Shown here piece by piece: positions 4,106 through 63,448 of a DNA stretch of 64,000 nt; position 1 is the stretch's first letter, and the number at the start of each line of letters is the position of its first letter. The stretch is taken from contig NC_084461.1 in NCBI RefSeq assembly GCF_027409185.1, forward strand, positions 187,090,001 through 187,154,000, read 5' to 3'. The stretch comes from Cynocephalus volans. Taxonomy: Eukaryota; Chordata; Mammalia; Dermoptera; Cynocephalidae. A model generated the notes under the pieces. It was given only the letters and a program-made list of their open reading frames with translations, was not told where the DNA came from and did not search any database. The translations under genes and the position numbers were made by a program.

Positions 4106-6092
4106 TACTTTCTATCCTTTACCTTGTTTTATGTTCTTCACTGAACTCACAAAGTAAATCTGATTTGCTTACTGATTCATTCCCTCACTAGCATGTACGT
4201 TCCATGAGGGGAGATGACTAGTCTGTCTTGTTTACTACTGTATCCCCATGGGCTAGAACTATGCCTGGCACACAGTGGAGGCCTGATTAATACTTCTTGA
4301 GGAAAGGAGCACTCATGCTAGGGGCAGCCAATCCAAGACTATAACCAGACTCATGCTCTATGGCCCGTGAGATTTTGCTCAGAGAGGGAGGGCCAGCCAG
4401 TCTCCCTCTCAAACATCTGAACTGGAGACTATAGGGCTAATGTATTTAGACAATTGACAAAGAGTGTTGATGGTAACTGGAAGCTCTAAGTGAGGTCCAT
4501 ATGTGAAGCACAGGCCATGGGCAAGCTCAAGATGGGCAGATGCAGAAGCTCCCAGGAGCAGAAATTCAAAGCACAGAGAAGAAACAGCAGAAGGAGAACA
4601 AGCCAGCAGTCAGTGAGAGAAGACTGCAAAGAAAAATAGCGCCTGAGAGAGGAGCCAAGTCCTTAACGGTGGTCTAACAGTAAAGAGGGGCATCTCCCTC
4701 TTTACTGAGGGAGGTAGAGGACGTAGAGCCCCCTAGAACCCAGCTCCAGTCTCCACTGAAGTCTGACAGTCCTCAGAATCCTGGAACCAGCATGAGATGA
4801 CTAGCAGCTAATCCTTACGGTAAACCTCCATTCCACGGACTGGTACAAGAGGGTCCCCGATCCATGCAGCCAAAAGAGTTCTGCCTAAAACTCAAGCTCT
4901 GTGGCCTGGACTTCTAACCACAGATGAGAGAATTCCAACAAAAGATAGAAGTAATTCAATTCTAGGGAATGGGCGCCTACGTTCTGAATTTTTCATCAGC
5001 CATTATACAATCCTGAAAAATAAGTAAAATTAACTTTCTACAGTACCCTATTATAGGAATTATACCAGGAAACACAGATAAGGCCCACTTTCCAGACATT
5101 TCGTCTTATAACAAGGACCCACCTATCACTAGATCCCCCTGCCCTGGCACCTAGTATGCTCAGCATAACTCAGTGTAACTCCAGGGCAGGCTGCTACACG
5201 CTCCACTCCAGAGGTTGCGTTTGTCTTTACAGAGCTGAAGATAAACAAGATTAGTAAAAGTAAGGTTATAAAGTTGGTTTCCAGGTCCCTGAACATCCCT
5301 TTTTCAATTCAACATTATTTCTTAATCATCTAGTACGTGCCAGAGACTGTTAGGCTCCACGAGGAAGTCAGAGGTGAAGACAGCAGGGTCCACATCACAA
5401 CTATACAAGGCCTAATCAAATAAGGGCCATGGCTTTATAGAGGGATGTGATGTTCATTTGCTTTGGGAAGGCATACAACAGCATCAGAGTCTTGAGCTGA
5501 GTCATGAAGGAAGCGGAGGACATCACCAGTGGGGAAGGGCAGTGCACGGAAGGACACAGAATAGCCCAAGGCATGCGCCTTCTCCATCTTGGCTTCCCTG
5601 GGCCATACATTAGTGGTGGAATTGGCACTTTCACCTCCTCTTTAACAGAATTTCAGGCTTTTGTGAGCAGATAAGGGAGGTAACTTTTCACTTTAAGAGA
5701 CATTTCCTTGCACAAGGTGCCCAACCTCTCAGCAACAGAGCAAATTAACTTCTGGGCTCAGGTTTTCCTTTTTTTAATTTGAAAATCAGGATTCCACCAA
5801 CCTAGCTGAGAGGGTATTGTAAGAGTTGCTTAAGATCACGGAAAGATCATAGAATCTACAACATAGTAGCTGCTCAGTTAATGTGAATTCTCTTCTCTTC
5901 TCCCACCCTAGTAAATAACCTCCTTCCAACTTCTCCCCTAACCTCTTCTCCCAGACTCTCCTTTCCCAATTCTACCAACACTTCCTTGCCCTTCCCTCAG
6001 TTTGGCAATTAACCAACCAGTCTCTATATAAAATGGAAATGTAGTCCTGGATTACTAAAAGGGAAAAGATAGGTAAGAAAAGAACACTGGGG

Positions 6093-6600: not shown

Positions 6601-7429
6601 GTGAAAAAGAAGAAAAACTGCTTATCTTTGGTGTGGTTATAGAGGAGTAAAACTAATTTAGCCATTAGTATGAATGGTTTCCATTTACAACTAGCTACCA
6701 TGCCTAGCATTAGAAGATTCCTCTATTGAAAACTTAAAATTTGGAGCACACAGTGTTCTAAACCTTTAGTCCTTACTATTCCTTAAGTCTGGCATAGACG
6801 CCCATCTTGGGTCATGAACAAAGGGTTATTGCTATACAGGGCATACATCTAGGGGGCTTCATCCTAGAAACTTATATCCCAAGGCTATCTTACAGGTCCT
6901 AATTAAAATGTCTCCTTAAATATCCACTAAACAAAAACCCATTTTCCAGAAAGCTACTGCTTATCTCTAAATACCTAAAAAGACCATCTATTAGCTCGGA
7001 GACATTCACACCAAGCCTCCCTGATAAGGAGTTACTTAAAAAGGTAGAGAAGTGAAACCAAAACCAACTACAAAAAGCAACACACTAGATGTGTTCAGAA
7101 TCTGTGTGGGGGATGTACATGTGTGACATTCCTTAAAAAGTTAAGAGGGCAAGAACCATGAACTATGTTCTAGAGTACATAGCTCCATTGTGGAGCCTTA
7201 GAAAGGATCTGGCCAAATCAAGAATGCTTCTATTTAGCATTTGTCAGGCAGGCATTTGAGAGCTGCACTCAAAGATCCCAGTCAGATACATTATTTTCTT
7301 CATAAGTTTCTTGTCTATAAATGAGAAACTTGGGCTCCTAATAAATGTCAGCTGAATGAGAATACAGACTTGAAATTCCACCATAACCCACCTGCTACAC
7401 TCAGCCTGTTTAATCTCCTCTTGCCTGTC

Positions 7430-23005: not shown

Positions 23006-23304
23006 GGTGGAATTCTGGATGCTGAGGATTTATGGAAGGGGCTGCCTCAGTGGTCCAAAACAGGTCTATGTTATCCTGTTTATTTCCTTGTCCTCAGCTG
23101 TGAAACTTCCAAGTCCTTGTCACATGGGATTACTAATAGGGGAGCAGTTTGGGGGGGACAGAGACACTCCCTCCAAGAGAATGGCACCAAGACAGGAAGC
23201 AGAGCTACCATATGGACAACCACCCTTCCCATGTGGAGGGACTCCTAGATTTGTCAAGGAGGCACTCCAAGCCCTGGGATGGAGGGACGGGGGCTCATGT
23301 AGGG

Positions 23305-54887: not shown

Positions 54888-54904
54888 AAAAATAGACAAT
54901 AGGG
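54888..54904 (+). repeat. Left target-site duplication of the L1
   Basis: 'aaaaatagacaataggg', identical to 61659-61675. The A-rich start (at/aaaaat) fits the L1 endonuclease preference TTTT/A on the nicked strand. Confidence 0.92.
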
Positions 54905-56440
54905 GGGCATGAGAAAGATGGCGGCGGCTGCGGCGGCTGGCGCGGAGTAGCTGAGGTGGAAAAGGTGGCCACTGGGCCTCAGGCAGCCGGGAAACTTGTG
55001 GACCTTCCTCTCACCATCTCTTAAGGGAGGACCGCTGCTGCTGGCCGGTCGTGGGGGCTCAACGCCACTTTGCCCCCGGCAGGAGAGGCTGCCTCATTTA
55101 CAGGCAACAGCTTTGAAGTGTGGAGCAGGAAAAGAACTGATTCTTAGCTGCAAAAGCGAGTCTTGAAACAGGGAACACGGCGCCAGGGCTGCTGTGGATG
55201 CAGCCAGGATCCCGGAGGCTGGGGCCGCACTGAAGGCGGCCAGCTGCCCTATTCAGGATTCGAGGTTTCAGGCCGGCATTAAAGAAGATTCCTGGGAGCG
55301 CCCGAGCGGCGCCGCGACTGAACAGCCCGAGGTGGCAGCGCCGAGAACACGGAAGGCAACAAACCAGAGACAGAGCGAGCGCCCGACCTGGCACAGCACT
55401 GTGAGTGATCCCTGGCACAGCTCTGTTCGGGGGGTGGATGCCCACGCGGCTCCCGCCTGCACCACCAGGCCACTCACTGCCCTGGTGCTGCCTCCATTTT
55501 CCCAGGTGCGGGCAGCTCCGCCCTGCTCGGCCATCACTGAGCCCAGTTGCTTGGCCTGGCGCGGGGCTTTCCAGACCCTGCGGGCCGGCCTCCTCTCCCA
55601 CTCCCTCCGCGGTTCTCTGGCGGGGCTGAGGGTATGGGGCGACCCGACCAGTGTTGGGAGGGCTAGGAAGTACGGGCGGGCCGACTGTCACTCCACCACA
55701 CCCTGGACTCCGCCCCGGTAAACTTCCTGTTACTGGGAGGCAGATACCATCTCTGCGACCACCAGTTTGGAAAAAAGCCTAACGAATTTCTGGTTGGGAA
55801 TAGTGTGGTAGGAGAGTTCCCAGGTCCACTTGAACCTGCCGGAGAGCAGGCTGCAGGCGGGCACTAGACTCGGTTTATACCGGGGGGATACAAAGGTGAA
55901 CAAGACCCGAGAAAGATCTACATAGTGCTACAAAGGCACCCAGAGAGACCGGTCGTCTGAGCCTAGCAGAAACCTGGTAGACTTCCTGGACGAGGCGGTG
56001 CTGAGCAGGGTCTTGAAGGCCCAGCTGATAGACGAGGGGTGCAGAAGACACACCCCAGCCCAGCACAGTGTGCACAGAGGGGGGAGACGTGCGGCCAGGG
56101 AGGCGGAGACTCGACAGAAACCACACACCCGGTGGGGTCGCCACTGCACGATCTAACAGCATGGGCCAGAGCACACGGAATGGGGAGAAGTCCTGTACAG
56201 AAAGTGAAAGCTCAACAGAGATCACACACCCTGTGGTACGTGATCCACCAGCCCAGCAGAGTACAAGCTGACCAGAAAGGTGGATCCCCGGAGAAGGCCA
56301 AGACCCGAGGCAACCACACACAAAAGACACTAGAGGCCAACTGAGCAGTCACGGCGGGAGCCATACCAAGTTGGCAACCACAGCAACATCCTAGTTAGTC
56401 ATTAGTCTCAAACCGGTGGACTGTGAAACCCCCTGCCACA
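54905..56440 (+). promoter_or_regulatory. L1 5' UTR and internal promoter
   Basis: It is GC-rich and starts 'ggcatgagaaagatggcggc'. A consensus YY1 site AAGATGGCGGC lies at 54915-54925, 11 bases in, the place where human L1 also has its YY1 site that sets the start of transcription. The length of about 1.5 kb exceeds the roughly 0.9 kb I recall for human L1. It is unusually open in several frames: 55194-55721 (175 codons) on plus, 55098-55691 (197) and 55875-56330 (151) on minus; none resembles a protein I know. Confidence 0.85.
54915..54925 (+). promoter_or_regulatory. YY1 site in the L1 promoter
   Basis: AAGATGGCGGC, a full match to the YY1 consensus, about 11 bases from the 5' end of the element. 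Confidence 0.7.
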
Positions 56441-57421
56441 ATGAATAAACACCAAAAAAAAGACACCAGAAATACAAAAAATCAAGAAAGTACACCACCA
56501 AAAGTTATTAAATCTCATACTCTAGATCCTATAGAACAAGAAGCCCTTGAAATAACTGACAAGGAATTTCGAGTGATAATTCTAAGGAAACTGAATGAGA
56601 TACAAGAAAACTCAGCTAGACATCATGATGAAATGAGGAAAAGTATACAGGATCTGAAAGAGGAAATATACAAGGAAATCAATGTCCTGAAAAAAAATGT
56701 AGCAGAACTTGCTGAACTGAAGAAGTTATTCAGCGAAATAAAAAACACAACGGAGAGTTTAACCAGCAGGCTTGTCGAAGTTGAAGAGAGAACCTCTGAA
56801 CTTGAAGATGGGCTGTTTGAAATAACACAAGCAGACAAAAAGAAAGAAAAAAGAATCAAGGACATGGAAGAAAATCTGAGAGAGATATCAGACAACCTCA
56901 AGCGCTCAAATATCCGAGTCATGGGTATTCCAGAAGGGGAGGAAAATGGAGATTCCATTGAAAACATATTCAACAAAATAGTGGCAGAAAACTTCCCAGG
57001 TATAGGAAAAATCACAGATCTTCAGATCCAGGAAGCTCAACGATCTCCAAACGTATTCAACCCAAAAAGGCCTTCTCCAAGACATGTCATAGTCAAATTG
57101 GCAAAACTCAGAGACAAAGAGAGAATCTTAAGAGCTGCAAGAGAGAAGCGTCAAATCACCTATAAGGGAGCCCCAATCAGGTTAACATCAGACTTTTCAT
57201 CACAAACCCTAAAAGCTAGAAAGGAATGGGATGATATTTTCAAAATACTAAAAGACAAAGATTGCCAGCCAAGAATACTCTACCCTGCAAGGCTATCCTT
57301 CCGAAATGAGGGGCAAATAGTATATTTCTCAGACAAACAAAAACTGCGGGAGTTCACTACCACAAGACCACCCTTACAAGAAATCCTCAAGGGAGTACTG
57401 GGTTTGGTTCCTGAAAAATAA
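56441..57421 (+). CDS. L1 ORF1p, RNA-binding chaperone
   Basis: ORF1p forms trimers that coat L1 RNA in the cytoplasmic ribonucleoprotein and act as a nucleic-acid chaperone during target-primed reverse transcription. The protein is 326 residues from the ATG at 56441 (MNKHQKKDTRN...). A second in-frame ATG 18 bases upstream (56423) would add MKPPAT; I prefer the inner one because it gives the basic start usual for the family. In order: a Lys/Glu-rich N-terminus, a heptad coiled coil about 45-150 (for example LKKNVAELAELKKLFSEI), the RRM from about 155 (NIRVMGIPEGEE), and the C-terminal domain about 230-326 (YKGAPIRLTSDFSSQTLKAR; ending GVLGLVPEK). Length and domains match mammalian ORF1p (human 338). 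No disruption seen. Confidence 0.95.
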   Translation: MNKHQKKDTRNTKNQESTPPKVIKSHTLDPIEQEALEITDKEFRVIILRKLNEIQENSARHHDEMRKSIQDLKEEIYKEINVLKKNVAELAELKKLFSEIKNTTESLTSRLVEVEERTSELEDGLFEITQADKKKEKRIKDMEENLREISDNLKRSNIRVMGIPEGEENGDSIENIFNKIVAENFPGIGKITDLQIQEAQRSPNVFNPKRPSPRHVIVKLAKLRDKERILRAAREKRQITYKGAPIRLTSDFSSQTLKARKEWDDIFKILKDKDCQPRILYPARLSFRNEGQIVYFSDKQKLREFTTTRPPLQEILKGVLGLVPEK

Positions 57422-57608
57422 CTACCACTGCCATAAAAACCTAAGAAAAATCTAAACCCGCTAGTACAATAAAAATGGCATTCATGAAGAGAAAACAAGC
57501 TAACAAAAACACTATCTACAACCTAAGGAACCAACAAACAAAGAAACCAAACAGTAAATCAGAAAGCAAGGAACAAAAGACACCTAAGACAACCAAACAA
57601 CCAATAAA
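57422..57608 (+). other. L1 inter-ORF spacer
   Basis: 187 bases, A-rich and T-poor, no ATG-led ORF of note. I recall about 63 bases in human L1, so this spacer is longer. Confidence 0.8.
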
Positions 57609-60600
57609 ATGCTAGGAATAAATCAACACCTTTCAATAACAACTCTTAATGTTAAAGGCTTAAATTCCCCAATTAAAAGACACAGACTGGCTGACTGGAT
57701 CAAAAAGCAGGACCCAACTATATGCTGCCTACAAGAGACCCACCTCACCCATAAAGATTCACACAGACTAAGAGTGAAAGGATGGAAAAAGATTTACCAT
57801 GCAAACAGAAAAGAAAAACGAGCTGGAGTGGCTATTCTTATATCTGACAAAATAGACTGTAAACTAAAAACCATAAAAAGAGACAATGAGGGACACTACT
57901 TAATGATAAAAGGACTGATCCATCAAGAAGACATAACAATCATAAATATGTACGCACCCAATGTTGGAGCAGCCAGATTTATAAAACAAACTCTATTAGA
58001 CCTAAAGAAGGAAATAGACACTAATACCATAATAGCAGGGGACCTGAACACTCCACTGTCAATATTAGACAGATCATCTAGGCAAAGAATCAGTAGAGAA
58101 ACACAAGATCTAAACAAGACTCTAGACCAATTGGAATTGGCAGATATCTACAGAACATTCCACCCAACAACCTCAGAATATTCATTCTTCTCATCAGCAC
58201 ATGGATCATTCTCCAGGATAGATCACATATTAGGTCACAAATCAAGTCTCAATAAATTCAAAAAAATTGGAATTATCCCATGTATCTTCTCAGACCACAA
58301 TGGATTAAAACTAGAAATTAATAACAAACAAAACTCTGGAAACTATACAAACACATGGAAATTAAACAGCATTCTACTTAATGACATATGGGTCCAAGAA
58401 GAAATCAAGCAGGAAATCAAAAAGTTTATTGAAACTAATGAAAACAATGATACATCATACCAAAACCTGTGGGATACTGCAAAAGCAGTATTGAGGGGAA
58501 AATTTATTGCATTAAATGCTCACTTCAGAAGAATGGAAAGATGGCAAGTGAACAACCTAACACTTCACCTTAAAGAACTAGAAAAACAAGAACAATCCAA
58601 TCCTAAAGTTAGCAGACGGAAAGAAATCATTAAGATCAGAGCAGAACTGAATGAAATTGAAAACCAAAAAACAATTCAAAAGATCAACGAATCAAAAAGT
58701 TGGTTTTTTGAAAAGATAAATAAAATTGACAAACCATTAGCATGGCTAACAAAAAAAAGAAGAGAGAAGACTCAAATAACAAAAATTAGAAATGAAAAAG
58801 GCGATATTACAACTGATTCATCTGAAATACAAGGAATCATTCGAGACTACTACAAACAACTATACGCCAACAAATTTGAAAATCTGGAGGAAATGGATAA
58901 ATTTCTGGACACACACAAGCTCCCAAAACTGAACCGTGAAGACGTAGAAAATTTGAACAGACCAATAACAATAAAGGAGATTGAAGCTGTTATCAGAAGG
59001 CTCCCAACAAAGAAAAGCCCAGGACCAGATGGATTCACAGCAGAATTTTACCAAACATTCAAAGAGGAATTGACACCGATTCTTTACAAATTATTCCAAA
59101 AGATTGAAACGGACGCAAATCTCCCAAACTCATTCTATGAAGCAAACATCATCCTGATACCAAAACCAGGTAAAGATATAACCAAAAAAGAAAACTACAG
59201 GCCGATATCCTTGATGAATATAGATGCAAAAATCCTCACTAAAATACTAGCAAACAGAATACAGCAACACATACGAAAAATTATTCATCACGATCAAGTG
59301 GGATTCATCCCAGGGATGCAAGGTTGGTTCAACATACGCAAATCAATAAATGTGATACACCATATTAATAAACTCAAACACAAGGACCATATGATCATCT
59401 CTATAGATGCTGAAAAAGCATTTGATAAAGTTCAGCACTCATTCATGACAAAGACCCTCTATAAGTTAGGTATAGAGGGAAAGTATCTCAACATAATTAA
59501 AGCCATATATGACAAACCCACTGCCAATATCATCCTGAATGGGGAAAAGCTGAAAGCTTTTCCCTTAAGAACAGGCACTAGACAAGGATGCCCACTCTCA
59601 CCACTCATATTCAACATAGTGTTGGAAGTACTAGCCAGAGCAATCAGAGAAGAGAAGGAAATAAAGGGCATCCAGATTGGAAAAGATGAAGTCAAACTGT
59701 CCCTGTTTGCAGATGACATGATCCTATATATCGAACCGCCTAAAACCTCTACAAAAAAACTGTTGGAATTGATAAATGATTTCAGCACAGTAGCAGGATA
59801 CAAAATCAACACACAAAAATCAGTAGCATTTCTTTTCTCCAATAGTGAACATGCAGAAGGAGAAATCAAGAAAGCCTGCCCATTTACAATAGCTACCAAA
59901 AAAATAAAATACTTAGGAATTGAGTTAACCAAGGAGGTGAAAAATCTCTATAATGAGAACTACAAACCACTGCTGAGAGAAATTAGAGAGGATACAAGAA
60001 GATGGAAAGATATTCCATGCTCTTGGATTGGAAGAATCAACATAGTGAAAATGTCCATACTACCGAAAGTGATATACAAATTCAATGCAATCCCCATCAA
60101 AATTCCAAAGACATTTTTCTCAGAAATGGAAAAAACTATTCAGACATTTATTTGGAACAATAAAAGACCACGAATAGCCAAAGCAATGCTCAGCAAAAAA
60201 AATAAAGCTGGAGGCATAACACTACCTGACTTTAAGCTATACTACAAAGCTATAATAACCAAAACAGTATGGTACTGGCATAAAAACAGACACACTGACC
60301 AATGGAATAGAATAGAGAATCCAGAAATCAACCCACACACTTACTGCCATCTGATCTTTGACAGAGGCACCAAGCCTATTCACTGGGGAAGGGACTGCCT
60401 CTTCAGCAAGTGGTGCTGGGATAACTGGATATCGATATGCAGGAGAATGAAACTAGATCCATACCTCTCACCGTATACTAAAATCAACTCAAAATGGATT
60501 AAGGATTTAAATATACACCCTGAGACAATAAAACTTCTTAAAGAAAACATAGGAGAAACACTTCAGGAAATAGGACTGGGCACAGACTTCATGAATACGA

Positions 60601-61436
60601 CCCCAAAAGCATGGGCAACCAAAGGAAAAATAAACAAATGGGATTATATTAAACTAAAAAGCTTCTGCACAGCAAAAGAAACAATTAAAAGAGTTAAAAG
60701 ACAACCAACAGAGTGGGAGAAAATATTTGCAAAATATACATCTGACAAAGGATTAATATCCAGAATATATAAGGAACTCAAACAACTTTACAAGAAGAAA
60801 ACAAGCAACCCAATTAAAAAATGGGCAAAAGAGCTAAGTAGGCATTTCTCTAAGGAAGATATCCAAATGGCCAACAGACATATGAAAAAATGCTCAACAT
60901 CACTCAGCATCCGGGAAATGCAAATCAAAACCACATTGAGATACCATCTAACCCCAGTTAGGATGGCTAAAAGCCAAAAGACTATGAACGATAAATGCTG
61001 GCGAGGCTGCGGAGAAAAAGGAACTCTCATACATTGTTGGTGGGACTGCAAAATGGTGCAGCCTCTATGGAAAATGGTATGGAGGTTCCTTAAACAATTG
61101 CAAATAGATCTACCATACGACCCAGCCATCCCACTGTTGGGAATATACCCAGAGGAATGGAAATCATCAAGTCGAAGGTATACCTGTTCCCCAATGTTCA
61201 TCGCAGCACTCTTTACAATAGCCAAGAGTTGGAACCAGCCCAAATGCCCATCATCAGATGAGTGGATACGGAAAATGTGGTACATCTACACAATGGAATA
61301 CTACTCAGCTATAAAAACGAATGAAATACTGCCATTTGCAACAACATGGATGGACCTTGAGAGAATTATATTAAGTGAAACAAGTCAGGCACAGAAAGAG
61401 AAATACCACATGTTCTCACTTATTGGAGGGAGCTAA
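57609..61436 (+). CDS. L1 ORF2p, endonuclease-reverse transcriptase
   Basis: ORF2p nicks target DNA and reverse-transcribes L1 RNA onto the nick. The protein is 1275 residues, the length I recall for human. The AP-like endonuclease (1-240) keeps N14, E43, D145, N147, D205 and H230 (motifs LQETH, AGDLNTP, SDHNG). The central linker region (240-500) contains [14 protein letters not shown]. The reverse transcriptase (about 500-770) has [17 protein letters not shown]600 in [27 protein letters not shown] and FADD with D702/D703. The C-terminal Cys/His knuckle is C1130, C1134, H1142, C1147 in [18 protein letters not shown]. All residues fall at the same numbers as in human L1, so the frame is collinear. 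Translation in the family is by unconventional reinitiation after ORF1. Nothing missing was found. Confidence 0.97.
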
Positions 61437-61658
61437 AAATTAATATATAAATTCACACACACACATACACACACACACACACAAACCGGGGGGGGGGAAG
61501 AAGATATAACAACCTCAATTATTTGAAGTTGATACAACAAGCAAACAGAAAGGACATTGTTTGGGGGGAGGGGGGGAGGGAGAAGGGAGGGAGGTTTTGG
61601 TGATGGGGAGCAATAATCAGCTACAATGTATATCGACAAAATAAAATTAAAAAAAAAA
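61437..61658 (+). other. L1 3' UTR with CA repeat and G-rich tract
   Basis: A CA run (61456-61482), a G-run, a polypurine G-rich tract about 61560-61595 ('ggggggagggggggaggga', 'gaagggagggagg'), AATAAA at 61639 and the A-tail. The G-rich tract fits the quadruplex-prone segment known in young L1 3' UTRs. Confidence 0.85.
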
Positions 61659-61675
61659 AAAAATAGACAATAGGG
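61659..61675 (+). repeat. Right target-site duplication of the L1
   Basis: Identical to 54888-54904. Its first A bases merge with the L1 A-tail. Confidence 0.92.
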
Positions 61676-61772
61676 CTGCCAGTTAGTTCACTTGGTTAGA
61701 ACACCAAGCTGATAACACCATGGTCAAGGGTTCAGATCCCCATACTGGCAAGCCGCCAAAAAAAAAAAAAAA
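61673..61772 (+). repeat. tRNA-Ile-type SINE, monomer, at the L1 right edge
   Basis: 'gggctgccagttagttcact', 'aagctgataacaccatggtc', 'agatccccatactggcaagc', A-tail. Its first bases overlap the L1 target duplication, so the SINE was there before the L1. Confidence 0.88.
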
Positions 61773-61976: not shown

Positions 61977-62090
61977 GGCTGTCCAGTTAGCTCAGCTGGT
62001 TAGAGCCTGATGTTATAACACCAAGGTTAGGGGTTCAGATCCCCATACTGGCTCGCCCCTAAAAAAAAATTAAATAAATAAATAAAAGTA
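61977..62090 (+). repeat. tRNA-Ile-type SINE, monomer, inside older L1
   Basis: 'ggctgtccagttagctcagc', 'tggttagagcctgatgttat', 'gttcagatccccatactggc', (AAAT)n tail. The closest match here to a real tRNA-Ile body. Confidence 0.9.
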
Positions 62091-62100
62091 AATATATAAA

Positions 62101-62272
62101 GGTCCAGCCCGTGGCTCACTTTGGGAGAGTGTGGTGCTGATTACACCAAGGCCATGGGTTCGAATCCCATATAGGGATGGCTGGTTAGCTCACTGGGTGA
62201 GCATAGTGCTAACAACACCAAGTCAAGGGTTAAGATCCCCTTACCGGTCATCTTTAAAAAATAAAAATAAAA
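62101..62272 (+). repeat. tRNA-Ile-type SINE, dimer, inside older L1
   Basis: 'gtggctcactttgggagagt', B-box-like 'ggttcgaatcc', then 'gggatggctggttagctcac' and 'cttaccggtcatctttaaa'. Both SINEs are bracketed by 'aaaaaatggg' from the host L1. Confidence 0.92.
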
Positions 62273-63448
62273 AATGGGTGAAGGACTTGAACAGACATTT
62301 CTCAAAAAAAGACATACAAATGGCCAACAAGCACATGAAAAAATGCTTAAAATTGCTAATCATCAGGGAAATGCAAATTAAATCCACAATGAGATATCAT
62401 CTCACCCTAGTTAGAATGGCTATTATCAACAAGACAGAAAATAACAAATGCTGGCGAGTATGAGGAAAAAAGGGACCTCTCCTACATTGTTGGTGGGAAT
62501 GTAAATTGGTATAGCTATCGTGGGAGACAGGATGGAGGTTCCTCAGTGAACTAAAAATAGATCTACTTTACAACCCAGCTATCCCACTACTGGGTATATA
62601 CCCAAAGAAAATGAAATCATTTAGGTTCATTGCAACACTATTCACAATAGCCAAAAGATGGAATCAACCTAAATGTCTATCAATAGATGAATGGATAAAA
62701 AAAACTGTAATATATATACACAATGGAATATTATTCGGCTATTAAAAGAAATGAGATCATTTGCAGTAAAACAGATGGAACTGGAAACCATCATGTTAAG
62801 TGTGGTAAGTCAGGCACAGAAAGACAAATACCACATGATCTCACTGATAAGTGAAATCTAAAAAAAAATGGTGGTTCTCATAGAGGTAGAGAGTAGCATA
62901 ATAGTTACAGAGGCTGGAAAAGGTGGGGGGTGGGGAATAAGTGTTGGACTAATGGGTACAAAACTATGCTGTCTACCCTAAATGAATGACAGTGTGGTAT
63001 ATGCACGTATTGAAATGACACACTGTGCCCCACAAATATGTACAAGTAAATGTTAACTTTTTTTTTTAATTTAAAAAATAAAGATTAATGTGTTCAAGGG
63101 TGAGATAATGTAATCTAGACACTCTTCTAACATTAAAATAAACACAGAAAGTCTGGTCATGACCCACTGACTTGGAGTAAAGTTGGATTCCCTCCACAAA
63201 CAGGCTCCAGAAATTTTTAGGTCAGGAATCAAGAAGGTGGTTCAAATTTCTTCTCTCTTACTCTCCACATGTGCAGTCATTTTGGCTGTCCAGCATCTGA
63301 ATACCCTCCCTAGTTCTGGGTGAGCTTTTGTGCGTGGAGGCAGCCCCCACTACAGAAGCTAAAGGGGGCCTGTCTCTCTCTTCATCCAGGCAGTTAAGCC
63401 CTGGACATGGGTCTCAACCTTGGCCATGAGCGGATGGTCTAGCCAATT

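Follow-up and report, generated by a model that had tools for sequence, protein, structure and literature searches.

The human LINE-1 (L1Ta/L1HS) has a 5'UTR of about 0.9 kb and encodes an ORF1 protein (ORF1p) of 338 amino acids. In the mouse, the available part of one report states that there are about 2,800 intact young L1s and that the promoters of young L1s are monomeric (PMC10620060). The open-licence literature, of which the coverage is partial, yielded no study of colugo L1 activity, and such a study may nevertheless exist; in the available parts of their main text, PMC12424770, PMC6036668, and PMC13174262 do not contain colugo names, and PMC1764860, in its available part, lists Dermoptera as an order and the flying lemur as being without a draft genome. 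We here describe an L1 copy found in a stretch of DNA of 64,000 nucleotides, which was analysed as a whole and is referred to as the window, and compare it with its relatives in the 2.81-Gb assembly (130 contigs) to which the window belongs.

The window contains a complete LINE-1 on the + strand at positions 54905–61658, in which both ORFs are open from end to end, as indicated by the ORF list and translation. It comprises a 5'UTR of 1.54 kb with a GC content of 61% (54905–56440), ORF1 of 326 aa (56441–57421), ORF2 of 1275 aa (57609–61436), and a 3'UTR with a CA repeat, G-rich tracts, an AATAAA, and the poly-A tail (61437–61658), all on the + strand. An earlier note on this DNA had described it as a full-length LINE-1 with intact ORF1 and ORF2, and this was borne out, including the coordinates. 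The same note had pointed to a perfect 17-bp target duplication and an A-tail. In agreement with this, the longest word common to the flanks was an exact 17-bp repeat, AAAAATAGACAATAGGG, which is located on the + strand on either side of the element (54888–54904 and 61659–61675), whereas the longest word in common was 12 bp or less across 396 random stretch pairs from the window. The duplication is certain for 12–17 bp, in that its leading five As might be part of the tail. The poly-A tail and a target duplication starting with A5 indicate an endonuclease-type site, as is characteristic of L1.

The RBD-like and dsRBD-like domains of ORF1p were matched in Pfam (PF02994 and PF17490), in accordance with the RRM-like domain and CTD of L1, and the trimer domain scored slightly below the Pfam cut-off (21.7 versus 22.2 bits); a coiled coil is probably also present. 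The protein was aligned to the human ORF1p structure (PDB 2ykp) at residues 106–322, and 24 of 28 relatives had an open ORF1 across the 318 codons that were compared. Eight consecutive As are located in the first codons of ORF1 (56454–56461). Among the 36 loci with a match to the pattern, including that of the window copy, the run was A8 in 33, A7 in 2, and A9 in 1, and the loci with A7 or A9 (L040, L057, and L041) were without a full ORF1. The A8 run looks like a slippage site, or a frameshift hot spot, in this L1 family.

The ORF2 protein (ORF2p) was aligned with human ORF2p (PDB 8uw3) from 1–1275 on 1–1275 with a score of 2112.7 bits, without gaps up to near residue 957. Its endonuclease (PF03372) and reverse transcriptase (PF00078) were matched in Pfam and, with a C-terminal Cys/His knuckle at C1130-C1134-H1142-C1147, make up the set of APE-type endonuclease, reverse transcriptase, and knuckle that defines ORF2p of L1. 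The earlier note had placed nine catalytic residues and the knuckle at the exact human numbers. This was found to hold for the knuckle and for eleven residues, N14, E43, Y115, D145, N147, D205, S228, H230, D600, D702, and D703, which we take to be catalytic or important in human ORF2p, and not for residue 192, which is Thr in human ORF2p and Ser here, a conservative change. The copy has the open ORFs and the catalytic residues that are expected of an active L1. The likeness to human L1 extends to the two-ORF layout, the collinear 1275-aa ORF2p with residues at equal numbers, the poly-A tail, and the target duplication, whereas the window copy differs in having a different and longer 5'UTR, an ORF1p of 326 aa, a CA repeat in the 3'UTR, and Ser192. 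It also carries six private missense changes, as counted against six other loci over 4 kb, and these could disable it.

The 5' terminus distinguishes the window copy from its relatives. The element AAGATGGCGGC at the start of the 5'UTR, presumably a YY1-like site, is directly preceded by TTTC, mostly as GAGTTTC, in 27 of 29 fetched relatives, whereas the window copy has GGGCATGAGA instead (54905–54914, + strand). The first 24 bases of the window copy occur once in the whole assembly. It is possible that this non-canonical terminus represents bases added without a template, the use of another start site, or a short switch of template at the end of reverse transcription. The GC-rich 5'UTR is presumed to be an internal Pol II promoter. 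The tandem repeat at its start consists of a 9-base unit only, present in 2–3 units, and the absence of long tandem monomers sets the window copy apart from the young L1s of the mouse, as far as the available description of the latter extends. An antisense frame of 197 aa in the 5'UTR, which remained open in 27 of the 29 copies aligned, the window copy counted, was examined as an ORF0-like candidate and rejected as a chance occurrence, a frame of that length or longer having appeared in 146 of 1000 sequences simulated from the 5'UTR with a first-order model. When an ATG start was required, the antisense frame was 95 aa long, and this length was reached in 690 of 1000 such simulations.

Young repeats are generally the hardest parts of a genome to assemble, and a copy of this kind might accordingly be suspected of being an assembly artefact or a collapsed repeat. 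Such an origin is extremely improbable, however, for a copy that has private changes, of which the target duplication is single and clean and the 5' end is unique, and which is located in an assembly of 130 contigs.

The age of the copy was evaluated in two parts of the element. In the 5' alignment (2.48 kb), which included the window copy and 28 of the 29 fetched relatives (L015 was left out, its match being short), the median distance of each of the 29 copies to the rest was 0.87–1.45%. The window copy was 1.09% from its nearest relative and had 13 private changes, compared with 3–16 in the other copies. The 5' pairwise table contained two loci twice (L002 = L041 and L005 = L040), and the duplicates were removed in the later six-locus comparison. 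In the 3' 4.2 kb, 19 copies, the window copy included, were on average 0.87% apart at non-CpG sites (0.76% when the outlier L059 is omitted), and the closest pair differed by 0.44%. Here, the window copy was 0.49% from its nearest sampled relative at non-CpG sites and had 10 private changes in 4,070 non-CpG sites, the other copies having 5–41. The tree obtained with FastTree was star-like, with very short inner branches, a window branch of 0.0039, and other branches of 0.0036–0.0198, and this shape fits a burst off one L1 lineage. With a mammalian rate of 2.2e-9 per site per year, a change of 0.25–0.39% would give the window copy an age of about 1–2 million years, or roughly 1–3 million years overall; half that rate would about double the age. 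The claim that the copy is young, made in the earlier note, is supported, and the copy is typical of the sample, being neither the youngest nor the oldest.

Taken together, the window copy is very probably a canonical mammalian LINE-1 that was inserted by target-primed reverse transcription while one L1 lineage was undergoing a burst. According to established L1 biology, the 5'UTR would drive a bicistronic RNA, which ORF1p would coat; the endonuclease of ORF2p would nick a TTTT/A-type site, reverse transcription by ORF2p would start from the poly-A tail, and a staggered second cut would result in the 17-bp duplication.

To place the copy within its family, 41-base patterns for the 5' and 3' ends were searched for in the assembly with up to 2 mismatches. 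The 5'-end pattern was found at 5,608 places (2783 + 2825) and the 3'-end pattern at 23,091 places (11561 + 11530), with 0 matches for either pattern when reversed as a control. Six copies were then sampled by list position from the exact 5'-end matches listed on contig C1, a sample that leans towards young copies because it was drawn from exact matches only. All six were full length (6745–6771 aligned bases), with ORF2 full length in two and both ORFs full length in one. Among ten copies selected by 5'UTR similarity, ORF2 was open in two, in one of which (L013/L048) ORF1 was open too, and of the two copies selected by ORF2 similarity (L040 and L041), one had an open ORF2 and neither had both ORFs open. 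Pooling these 18 relatives, which were read whole, both ORFs were open in 2 and ORF2 in 5; L039, which is inverted or rearranged, was excluded from these counts. The relatives have the same length and organisation as the window copy, and 7 of 8 unrearranged copies were 98.6–99.0% identical to it over the whole element, the eighth, L059, being 96.8% identical. What distinguishes the window copy is that both of its ORFs are open, as in 2 of the 18 relatives, and that it has the private 10-base 5' end.

A change of about 0.25–0.4% in 4.8 kb of coding sequence is expected to leave each copy with one disabling change or a few, which fits the proportion of intact relatives. The intactness of the window copy is most likely due to its youth and not to anything exceptional about it. 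The earlier note had regarded such copies as rare, which is not supported for this genome in view of the 5,608 5'-end places and the 2 intact copies among 18 relatives; intact family copies would rather seem to be a minority yet not rare. As a crude extrapolation, which has a wide error and is biased towards young copies, coding-intact copies may number in the hundreds in the assembly.

The earlier note had also proposed the window copy as a candidate source element and had named the presence of near-identical copies in the assembly as a check. The first ORF2 search (1 kb; 40 of 954 candidates scored) gave six other copies that were 100% identical to the window copy (L001–L006). The same six differed from it by 0.6–1.1% over 4 kb, however, and they were rejected as near-identical copies, the 1-kb stretch being simply conserved. 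The absence of near-identical copies, which the note had given as a refuting observation, is thus borne out in part. Another copy, L008, had one mismatch in the 1-kb stretch and was 0.5% from the window copy over 3.3 kb. The last 991 bases of the window copy had no identical partner among the 40 of 470 candidates that were scored, the best other match scoring 1745 bits compared with 1788 bits for the copy itself; this search lists matches down to 82% yet misses known 99% copies and is, hence, not a ranking of all copies. Furthermore, no daughter copies with the private changes of the window copy were found in these searches, as also indicated by the single occurrence of its first 24 bases in the assembly.

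The proposal stood with respect to youth, full length, and a coding-competent sequence, and not with respect to daughters or close copies. It seems unlikely that the window copy acts as a source element at present: its open ORFs, the agreement of all checked catalytic residues with human ORF2p except for the Ser in place of T192, and the youth of its lineage would be in keeping with such a role, but it has no offspring in the searches made, its 5' 24-mer is unique, its last 991 bases are without an identical partner among the 40 scored candidates, and its nearest sampled relatives are 0.5–1.1% away. Each similarity search scored 40 candidates and skipped very common words, by which a small active subfamily could escape; this skipping should favour copies that have private changes in common, although the search is non-exhaustive. 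We regard the window copy as a competent-looking member of a recent burst and at most as a candidate source, which may have kept the ability to copy itself.

Two further copies were used as anchors over 2.49 kb, with 40 candidates scored for each. The nearest other copy scored 4425 bits for L012 (4493 bits for itself) and 4435 bits for L055 (4491 bits for itself), and these gaps of 68 and 56 bits correspond to about 12–15 mismatches in 2.49 kb if each mismatch costs about 4.5 bits. Among the copies scored, near-identical relatives were thus found neither for the window copy nor for L012 and L055. Local tandem-array units aside, all pairs around three anchors and in the sampled set were at least about 0.4% apart. 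It may be, then, that the burst is over, that is, an extinct recent wave of which the surviving intact copies are merely undecayed as yet. The distances around L012 and L055 are what such a wave would leave; a small younger subfamily could be missed, however, given that each search scored 40 candidates and that the relatives read whole numbered 18, and we consider an extinct wave a serious possibility without holding it to be probable.

With respect to the burst as a whole, we tentatively suggest, at only slightly less than even confidence, that a close relative of primates has undergone a very large and very recent L1 expansion, with more than 5,000 5'-complete insertions from a single star-like lineage and more than 20,000 in total, of which perhaps hundreds are coding-intact; in scale, this expansion would resemble that of mouse more than that of human, and it may be ongoing. 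The likeness to young mouse L1s consists in many intact copies being present at once, as given in the available part of the mouse report (PMC10620060). The single window copy adds little, being one more intact mammalian L1; of greater interest is the size of the burst, which merits further attention. The host may plausibly be a colugo, as the earlier note held to be probable and as a tRNA-Ile-like SINE in the window would fit. In that case, colugos being close relatives of primates, the many recent full-length copies would provide a useful contrast to the few active L1s of human and could serve to examine why such bursts vary among related lineages.

Some L1 copies in the assembly were arranged in tandem. 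At C12:139.705–139.717 Mb (L043, C12:139705500–139714500), a head-to-tail array consists of 3.81-kb units that contain solely the 3' part of L1, from element position 2945 to the poly-A, with four junctions 3808–3810 bases apart at which the poly-A tail is joined straight to position 2945 of the next unit. Two junctions were covered in full by the 9 kb read. Neighbouring units were 99.87% identical (5.2 kb compared), and an exact pattern for the junction occurred 4 times in the assembly, all at that locus. A second array, at C2:174.469–174.479 Mb, gave three matches 4.55 kb apart and, hence, has at least 3 units; the 7 kb read there (L044, C2:174467000–174474000) contained one junction, at which a unit begins at element position 2235. 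The simplest reading of both arrays would be that one L1 landed within another at an A-rich endonuclease site and that the units were then amplified by unequal exchange. The rearranged family member L039 (C30:90516318–90524118) has parts in opposite orientation, with the switch at element position about 4912–4927, a structure that we take to be of the kind attributed to twin priming.

Within the window, an older diverged L1 fragment is located just downstream of the intact copy on the same strand (62265–62845), with 74% identity to it over 612 aligned bases. There are also tRNA-derived SINE units at 61673–61760 and 61977–62052, the first of which comes directly after the 3' target duplication of the L1, and units similar to it recur elsewhere in the window. 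ARAGORN reported a tRNA-Ile at 764–837 of the window, and tRNA-Ile-derived SINEs are, we assume, a colugo marker.
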